This document shows, one piece after another, positions 1,749 through 10,736 of a stretch of 10,736 nucleotides of DNA. The DNA lies in the NCBI GenBank assembly GCA_027604185.1, contig JADGKB010000213.1, positions 1 to 10,736 of the forward strand. Direction: 5' to 3'. Positions within the stretch are counted from its first letter, which is position 1, and each line of letters begins with the position of its first letter. The notes beneath the pieces were generated by a model. It saw only the letters and a program-made list of their open reading frames with translations. It did not search any database and was not told the DNA's origin. The stretch comes from Boothiomyces macroporosus. Lineage: Eukaryota; Chytridiomycota; Chytridiomycetes; Rhizophydiales; Terramycetaceae. The translations under genes were made by a program, and so were the position numbers.

Positions 1749-3380
1749 TCAAGATCTATTAACACTGCCAAATTCACTCTCAAACCGCTTGTACAAATCA
1801 AGATCTCTTTCAGACACACTTGCACGCACTTGAGTTAAAGCTTCCAAAAAGTCACGTTTAGTAATTGGTCGCACATCCTCAACGCTGATACTGGATATAT
1901 CAACTATATCTCGAATTGGCCCAAGCGCAGCTTCTCTAATTAGTCCATCCATATCGGACCCGCTATATCCTGGTGTTTTTTCAATAATTTCGCAAATATC
2001 GGCATTTGATAAATTGTGATGCTGCTTGGATAATAAAGATCGTATAATCGAAGAGCGCGCTTCAGGTTCTGGCAGTGGTACATACAGCTTTTTTCTAAAC
2101 CGTCGTCTGGCAGCTTCATCTATTTCATGTGGTCTGTAATCAAGTCCAGTTACCTGTTAGTTGCACCAATCATTAGTATTCGGTCTTCACTACTTGTTCC
2201 GCATCCATCAAACTGAACTAGAAATTCTGTTTTGATCCTACGAGTGGCCTCTTGCTCACCATCGGTTCTTTGTGTTAATAAAGAGTCAATTTCATCTACA
2301 AATATTACAGATGGCTGCTTGGCTCTTGCAACTGCAAACAGTGCTCGCACCATCTTTTCACCATCTCCGACCCATTTGGAAGTAAGGGATGATGAAGATA
2401 TCGAAAAGAATGTGGCATTACATTGACTAGCAATACATTTTCCAATCATTGTTTTACCTGTACCTAAAGTTAATGAAAAAATACCTGGCGGGCCAAACAA
2501 TAGTAGTCCTTTCGGAGGTCCACGAATCCCATTAAATATATCTGGTCGCAACTATTGTTAATAATACCAACCATTGGCCAAACCACAATTTCCTTAATAG
2601 TCGCTTTTGCATGCTCCAGTCCAGCTATTCGTTATATCAAAGATACCTGGTATTAACAATTCAATTACCTATATCGTCCCAGCTGACTTGGGTAACATTG
2701 GACACGATTTCATTCATTATAGTTTCCACCATAACTGGATCTATATTTTTCAATTTATCATCATTCATCGGAACAGGTTTTGATTCATTTGTTTCCTTGC
2801 GAATCATTGGAGAAACAAACCCTCTGTTACCAAGTCTCTTTTTTGGTTGTTCATTCTTTTTCCTATTGTCCAGCATCAATTTGTCGCTTGCAGACATGAA
2901 ATCTGGATGGTCAATAGACCTTTTCTGCGGTATCTGTTGTTCCACTTCCTGAGTATCTGCCCTACTGGATGACTCTATTGATTTTGCAGACTGCCAGTTC
3001 TCTTTATTTGTTGAAACGGCTTGAAGAGGATTTTGATTGACGAATCGATTTGATTCAACTAATTTAGGGTCTACTATATTGCACTGGACACCGACTGTCT
3101 TTCTTGCTGGCCGAACCACAAAGTCGCTTCCATCTTCGTAGTCTGACTCACCCAAGTCATCTTCCACACAAAATTCCTGCAAATCATCAGCTTTAATAGC
3201 AGACTTGATGGCAAATGGTTGGAAATTCCTCTTTCTTTTCTTTTCCATAATCATCTTGACTTGAGCCAGAGTATCATCCTGTCCAACTGGGAAATTTGTT
3301 CCATGCTCATAATTCAAGTACAGCAATCCTAATTTACTCGCCTTTCCTGCCTGGATATCCATTAAATTAAATCCCTCCAT
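1749..3380 (-). CDS. FIGL1: fidgetin-like AAA ATPase FIGL1/FIGNL1
   Basis: Exons 3380-2669, 2624-2572, 2551-2485, 2463-2154 and 2133-1749 encode 508 residues; introns are 44, 20, 21 and 20 nt. FIGNL1 is a meiotic-clade AAA ATPase that dismantles RAD51/DMC1 filaments in homologous recombination. The disordered N-terminal half has an FMSA motif at 161-164 followed by DKLxLDxRKK, matching the RAD51-binding FxxA region of FIGNL1, and then NRGFVSP, matching its conserved FVPP stretch. The AAA module has [21 protein letters not shown] (two short runs, 234-242 and 243-254), Walker A GPPGTGKT 275-282, Walker B FVDEID with D334-E335, sensor GATNR, the arginine run RRRF and a C-terminal VPS4-type helix. 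It is shorter than the human protein (674). The first ATG lies 33 nt from the divergent STIMATE start; a second ATG six codons in is possible. Confident. Confidence 0.96.
2464..2484 (-). other. 21-nt stop-free intron inside the Walker A codons
   Basis: This intron splits the Walker A glycine codon between GPP and TGKT. Its length is a multiple of three and it contains no in-frame stop, so retention would insert seven residues (IFSLTLG) into the ATP-binding loop rather than truncate the protein. It has donor GTATTT, branch-like TTAAC and acceptor TTTAG. Confidence 0.85.
2625..2668 (-). other. 44-nt intron, probably two abutting 22-nt introns
   Basis: All 44 nt must be removed to join WDDI to AGLEHAK in frame. 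The segment divides exactly in half. The 5' half (2668-2647) has donor GTAATT, branch-like TTAAT and acceptor ACCAG. The 3' half (2646-2625) has donor GTATCT, branch-like ATAAC and acceptor GAATAG. Each half is a complete intron by this genome's own pattern, with a zero-length exon between them. Confidence 0.6.
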
Positions 3381-10041: not shown

Positions 10042-10736
10042 ATGGAGGATTGGCAAAAGAGAGCAATACTAAATGCTAAAAATTTCACTGAAATCTCTTG
10101 GAACGATATAGGTGCGATTGTCGAGCAAGATCCGGAGACATGTAGGAAGTTTTATCAAAGAGAATGCAATAAAAAGGATCTCCCACCAAAAGTCGTGATT
10201 ACAAAAAATCAAAAGATTACAGGCCATGTTGGACTTGAATTGAAGAAAATACAAACAGAGAATCCAAAAATGAGTTTAAGGAAGTTGTCCGGTGTAATCA
10301 ATGAGAAATTTGGGGTATCTTTGTCCGCAGAAGCAATCCGGAAATACTTCAAAAAACAAGAATGGATTATTACAGAAATGGCATATAGGATTCAATTAAG
10401 ACTGGAGAATAAAATGAAAAGATTGGAGTTTGCGAAAGTGTACCAGGGGGATTCAGATATCTTGGAACGCGTTTTGTGGTCAGATGAAACATCAATTACA
10501 GCGATTCCTCAACACCGAAAAATTACTGTAAGAGTCCACCAGTCTTGTAGGAGTGCAGAATTGCCATTTTTACCAAAGGTTCAGAAAGGAGGTTTCAGTG
10601 TAATGTTTTGGGGTTGTTTCTCGCGTCACGTGAAAGGACCATTAATCGTTGTTGACGGAAGTATCAATGCCAAGAAGTACTTGGAATTGGTAAAAAAGGA
10701 AGTAAAACCTTTGTTAGATGGGTCAGACGAAGATTT
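10042..10736 (+). CDS. Tc1/mariner DDE transposase, N-terminal 231 residues
   Basis: An uninterrupted frame of 231 codons from an ATG in context TTAAATGG to the window edge. DDE transposases of this family cut the element out and insert it at TA. Residues about 1-105 form the DNA-binding part: a first helical region (6-43) and a second helix-turn-helix around MSLRKLSGVINEKFG and SAEAIRKYFKKQEW (77-108). RLEFAK (127-132) is typical of the linker. The first catalytic aspartate is D148 in VLWSDETSI. VMFWGCFS (187-194), KGPLIVVDGSINAKKYLELV (198-217) and VKPLL (221-225) match the family core. The second D and the final D/E lie beyond the window. No stop or frameshift is seen, so the copy may be young. 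No introns are needed, unlike all but one (PEX11) of its gene neighbours. Confidence 0.93.
   Translation, partial: MEDWQKRAILNAKNFTEISWNDIGAIVEQDPETCRKFYQRECNKKDLPPKVVITKNQKITGHVGLELKKIQTENPKMSLRKLSGVINEKFGVSLSAEAIRKYFKKQEWIITEMAYRIQLRLENKMKRLEFAKVYQGDSDILERVLWSDETSITAIPQHRKITVRVHQSCRSAELPFLPKVQKGGFSVMFWGCFSRHVKGPLIVVDGSINAKKYLELVKKEVKPLLDGSDED

Follow-up and report, generated by a model that had tools for sequence, protein, structure and literature searches.

Can one intron end and the next begin at the same point with no exon between them, and if so, how would such a structure be spliced? The question is raised by a 44-nt intervening sequence in the soil chytrid Boothiomyces macroporosus (Rhizophydiales, Terramycetaceae). 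It lies in the window, by which we mean the whole 10,736-nt stretch of DNA analysed here, which is the entire contig C213 of the assembly (15.2 Mb, 216 contigs). The original prediction described positions 2625..2668 as two complete 22-nt introns joined by a zero-length exon, and proposed that recursive splicing of the pair could act as an on/off switch. Its coordinates and sequence for this feature proved correct, and the gene lies on the minus strand, where it encodes a FIGL1-like AAA ATPase (Pfam matches AAA, AAA_lid_3 and Vps4_C). Our preferred reading, which we rate at roughly two chances in three, is that two introns are arrayed in tandem here and would each be removed individually as a compact module.

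Anatomy and reading frame of the FIGL1 array

The features of the FIGL1 gene are as follows:

2625..2668, minus strand: composite 44-nt intervening sequence in FIGL1, phase 1 (sequence and homology)
2647..2668, minus strand: unit 1, 22 nt, complete intron, GTAATT...TTAATACCAG, splice-matrix score 5.6
2625..2646, minus strand: unit 2, 22 nt, complete intron, GTATCT...ATAACGAATAG, score -5.4, branch spacing atypical
2669..3380, minus strand: first exon, start MEGF (the deposited model begins at 3362)
2572..2624, minus strand: exon of 17 residues immediately 3' of the array (homology)
2552..2571, minus strand: ordinary intron, 20 nt, WPM/LRP (homology)
2464..2484, minus strand: ordinary intron, 21 nt, GPPG/TGKT (homology)
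2134..2153, minus strand: ordinary intron, 20 nt, ATNR/PHE (gene model or homology)
1749..2551, minus strand: AAA, AAA lid and Vps4_C region, containing the 21-nt and the last 20-nt introns (Pfam)

Read along the minus strand, GTAATTGAATTGTTAATACCAG (2668-2647) is directly abutted by GTATCTTTGATATAACGAATAG (2646-2625). The insert is placed between ...WDDI and GLEHAK..., where it interrupts an alanine codon between the first and second bases. Removal of the 44 nt together with the three ordinary introns (20, 21 and 20 nt) gave a product of 508 aa, within which the deposited 502-aa B. macroporosus protein HK103_003046 was contained at 100% identity. The joint region (22 residues) aligned without gaps to the solved FIGL1 chain 8r64 (E 4e-129). 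Each unit carries a GT donor, a branch-like TAA motif and an AG acceptor, as GT-AG spliceosomal introns do, and taking the array out restores the conserved protein. The description as two complete introns around a zero-length exon was therefore borne out by sequence, FIGL1 homology and frame. A DNA search of the genome returned no second FIGL1 copy, i.e. the locus is single copy.

The two units differ in quality. The branch spacing had been said to match that of other introns, and this held for unit 1, whose TAA lies at the common position of -9, but not for unit 2, whose TAA lies at -10, a spacing seen in 8/253 introns. Likewise, the splice-matrix score of unit 2 (-5.4) fell below the minimum of 172 standard introns (-2.8). 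Both the internal acceptor (that of unit 1, score 5.6) and the internal donor are good, and the low-scoring final acceptor is needed on either splicing path. As also predicted, removing one half alone broke the FIGL1 frame: retention of unit 1 led to an immediate stop, of unit 2 to a frameshift and stop, and of both to a stop.

The remaining introns placed by a gene model or by FIGL1 homology, in those genes of the window that were annotated, measured 19-22 nt. The gene model missed the array and two of the three other FIGL1 introns, and these were placed by homology. Deposited FIGL1 models of Boothiomyces sp. JEL0866 and Terramyces are without the exon that adjoins the array here, which may be a fault of annotation or prediction; arrays may explain gene-prediction errors such as the loss of the post-array exon in these two relatives. 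Elsewhere in the window (10042-10736, plus strand), the end of the contig cuts off a Tc1/mariner-like transposase frame (HTH_Tnp_Tc3_2).

Intron length and abutting introns across the genome

Across 200 kb of contig C1, the spacing between GTA and the end of TAAY...YAG peaked at 19-22 nt (counts of 56, 83, 38 and 21) over a background of ~12 per length, and in the same count distances of 38-46 nt did not rise above background. A small de novo gene model was run on 260 kb, made up of the window, six AAA loci, 30 kb of C2 and the 200 kb of C1. Of its introns, 172/199 fell within 19-22 nt under a flat length prior and 253/259 under a peaked one, and in 195 of the 253 the TAA started at -8 or -9. 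The six introns outside the range measured 23, 25, 43, 45, 62 and 63 nt, the first two having good splice sites. The 43-nt call probably reflects a 22-nt GC-AG intron (C1:183921-183942) that a GT-only model misread.

These lengths bear on the alternative that the 44 nt of FIGL1 are spliced in one step that pairs the first donor with the last acceptor, the internal AG|GT being a relic of duplication or insertion, or mere chance. Only 4/259 gene-model introns exceeded 25 nt, including the misread GC-AG intron and the 63-nt one, which is doubtful. By a base-composition estimate, an AG|GT at the only position that splits 44 nt into two standard 19-22-nt units has a probability of ~0.0035 (about 0.4%). 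On the other side, the introns of 45 nt (C1:109915-109959) and 62 nt (L001:702-763) are undivided, have coding flanks that share one frame and look real. Such undivided long introns were about as numerous as arrays (Rpt1 and FIGL1) in the 260-kb sample. The original prediction had counted an abundance of 40-50-nt introns lacking an internal AG|GT as evidence against itself; no such abundance was seen, yet these undivided examples stand. The 45-nt intron resembles an 18-nt unit ending in TG rather than AG, followed by 27 nt, and is perhaps a decayed array.

Abutting introns were not confined to FIGL1. A single exon of zero length emerged unaided from the gene model, between introns of 21 and 20 nt in Rpt1 on contig C137; otherwise the minimum length among 156 internal exons was 38 nt. 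The genome-wide hunt for paired units suggested by the original prediction showed that the arrangement recurs, with 30 matches to a strict pattern of two abutting introns versus 2 for the reversed pattern, and 52 versus 9 for a laxer pattern. By our own count, the 30 strict matches represent 25 distinct arrays. The strict pattern is expected to catch ~35% of standard intron pairs, from which we infer a genome total of ~65 arrays; the FIGL1 pair escapes this pattern because the TAA of unit 2 lies at -10. The FIGL1 pair is thus one of dozens of zero-exon arrays that form a genome-wide class. Some stretches of the assembly are present twice (C166/C189, 3393 identical bases), and identical pattern matches occurred between C49/C100, C74/C106 and C1/C173 and within C2, C10, C20 and C48; these doubled stretches are recent duplications or uncollapsed haplotypes.

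We examined 32 arrays: all 25 strict ones, six hand-picked from the gene model or looser searches, and that of the window, a set that leaves aside most arrays matched by the lax pattern alone. After extension, 23 arrays had two units, five had three, three had four and one had five; the internal signals were required by the patterns and the extension rule, and their presence is partly by construction. Removal of the whole array fitted the flanking frames in 27 of 29 decidable arrays, compared with a chance expectation of one third (9.7), and with 5 when the first unit was kept, 4 when the last was kept and 11 when nothing was removed. This figure depends on an extension rule that was loosened after failures had been seen, the result moving from 23/26 to 25/29 and then 27/29. 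Loci L041 and L066 did not fit, and the frame was undecidable at L037, L048 and L060; at L037 the final rule drops a third unit that had been added under the previous rule, where the frame agreed.

Homology spanned the joint in genes for an SPX protein (4 units, 80 nt), Rpt1, RAD50, GID8 and FIGL1, and Pfam domains did so for ING (5 units, 101 nt), BRE (two 3-unit arrays) and GH63N (2 units). At L035 the joint encodes HNAWDNVEF, which we take to be a METTL2-type motif; Pfam gave no match for L035 or L062. The BRE-like gene (C8:114397-114820) carries its two 3-unit arrays separately, and the first contains two identical 19-nt units.

Recurrence this far above the reversed-pattern control, in arrays of up to 101 nt and five units, argues further against one-step removal, although that route would give an identical mRNA and is compatible with the sequence alone. 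On balance, we consider it unlikely, though by no means far-fetched.

Exons of zero length were over-represented among short gaps. Searches allowing 0-30 nt between two introns returned 79 matches versus 5 reversed when the first unit was 20 nt, and 44 versus 8 when it was 19 nt. Leaving out contig C103 and repeats, 16 gaps were zero (two in one C8 array) and 76 were 1-30 nt (mean 2.5 per length). The zero gap was therefore ~6 times the mean of the 1-30-nt gaps (Poisson, P = 1e-8), the runner-up being 3 nt (n = 7), and gaps of 1-3 nt gave 10 candidates. Candidate exons of 2, 1 and 1 nt lie between short introns at C25:33718-33757, C41:74826-74864 and C104:35552-35590, the first of them just before an AAA-domain match. 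Two proline-rich loci on C103, L053 (2301-4500, minus) and L054 (30051-31550, plus), had 36 and 31 predicted introns of ~20 nt, counted in pieces of 2.2 and 1.5 kb. Between them, 26/65 inter-intron gaps measured exactly 3 nt. Most of these read ACC and represent a proline codon that is split, which gives the impression that introns and codons were duplicated as one; L054 continues into an FH2 domain, which marks it as a formin. It seems that B. macroporosus can handle very short exons in general.

Removal and origin of the units

Individual removal of the FIGL1 units is favoured because nearly all introns keep to the length window and because long inserts divided into standard units occur far above chance. 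We propose that the spliceosome mostly recognises a compact module of 19-22 nt in total, made up of a GTA donor, a TAA-type branch motif starting 8-9 nt from the module end and an AG acceptor. Such a module would be read across the intron, so the length of the neighbouring exon would hardly matter and introns could abut or flank a single codon. Each unit would then most likely be excised separately, whichever came first, and after both excisions FIGL1 would have one continuous reading frame. The arrays as a class suggest that these tiny introns are self-contained modules, each excised on its own.

Recursive, two-step splicing of the FIGL1 array, as first suggested from the donor regenerated at the junction, is plausible. 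That regenerated donor would, however, be unnecessary, because each unit is a complete intron and either one could be excised first. A stronger version holds that regulated two-step splicing switches FIGL1 on and off, and it draws on the fact that the frame is lost upstream of the AAA domain whichever unit is retained. Retention of single introns proved equally disruptive, with a stop or frameshift in 253/253 cases, a result that for 21-nt introns follows from the workings of the gene model. The arrangement also recurs in unrelated housekeeping genes (Rpt1, RAD50, GID8, ING, BRE, SPX), and every complete route, including a jump from first donor to last acceptor, would give the same mRNA. The switch thus found no support and we regard it as very improbable. 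Since all complete routes would lead to one mRNA, extra units could instead be tolerated as nearly harmless.

Where the units came from was approached through their similarity. Adjacent units scored a mean of 5.59, against 4.69 +/- 0.39 for units of other arrays, a value reached in 17/1000 draws. The excess comes from the array on C8, in which two units are identical and another is a near copy, and from that on C92, with three similar units; judged by this resemblance, these two arrays, only 2 of the 32, evidently grew by tandem duplication. In most arrays, that of FIGL1 included (P = 0.96), the units were not detectably similar. Similar 19-nt units on C6 and C30 were considered as copies in related genes and ruled out, their flanks encoding unlike proteins.

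Tandem copying of entire introns would accordingly account for at least some of the new units, and a competing origin needs to be weighed against it. According to the proto-splice-site idea, introns insert at AG|G-like sites, and the edge of an existing intron could offer such a site to a second unit that is not a copy of its neighbour. The enrichment of zero-length gaps speaks for independent insertion, as does the finding that similarity between neighbours is in most cases no higher than between units from different arrays, although an old, diverged duplication would look the same. Against it, two arrays are clearly duplicated, and the FIGL1 units are without a convincing source copy elsewhere: the genome held no other copy of unit 1 within 3 mismatches and a single 3-mismatch match to unit 2, which ends in AC. 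We see independent insertion as a serious contender that still falls short of an even bet.

More broadly, the spliceosome of this species may work almost solely on a fixed 19-22-nt cassette, independently of exons. Introns would then be interchangeable modules that multiply by tandem duplication into zero-exon arrays of up to five units, or alternate with single-codon exons, and are removed singly in any order. We offer this generalisation tentatively, at slightly less than even odds. Whichever view prevails, the arrays provide a natural system in which exons are as small as they can be (zero, with candidates of 1-3 nt) and introns are near-minimal. It can be used to test how the spliceosome pairs sites without an exon, whether the order of removal matters and how introns are gained through duplication of whole introns.

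Relation to known systems

Among the open-access papers listed, as far as titles and opening abstracts show, none described tandem ultra-short introns or the introns of Boothiomyces; subscription papers lay outside this scope. Introners are introns that multiply. Multiplication is a point of likeness with the arrays, but the FIGL1 units are without the many similar genomic copies that mark an introner.

A narrow class of ultra-short introns is shared with ciliates, where, in the available text of PMC5014332, Paramecium introns form a length class near 25 bp. The words 'double', 'twice' and 'tandem' do not occur in that text, and 'two introns' occurs once, in a methods sentence. For UBC, the portion of PMC10809524 available to us describes AGGT as a dual-specific splice site within coding tandem repeats that give variable isoforms. 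The FIGL1 joint resembles it in that AG|GT is usable as both acceptor and donor and in the link to tandem repeats; here, however, the repeated units are introns and the mRNA would be constant.

Drosophila ratchet points, as outlined in the accessible part of PMC8605326, juxtapose an acceptor and a donor around an apparent zero-nucleotide exon within long introns, and their recursive splicing requires a cryptic exon at the ratchet point. The FIGL1 array likewise has an acceptor directly followed by a donor and could be removed stepwise (cf. PMC8605326). In contrast to that system, it has neither a long host intron nor a cryptic exon, spanning 44 nt in total, and unit 2 itself takes up the 22 nt that follow the joint; a two-unit array of 19-22-nt units would leave no room for a cryptic exon of the Drosophila type.

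Fungal stwintrons, in the excerpts of PMC5639578 and PMC12403724 available, consist of one intron interrupting a splice element of another and are removed by consecutive reactions. They share with the present arrays their occurrence in fungi and the presence of two introns at one place, the stwintron pair being excised consecutively (PMC5639578, PMC12403724). Unlike the interrupted introns of those accounts, both FIGL1 units are complete and lie side by side, and arrays of this kind reach five units.
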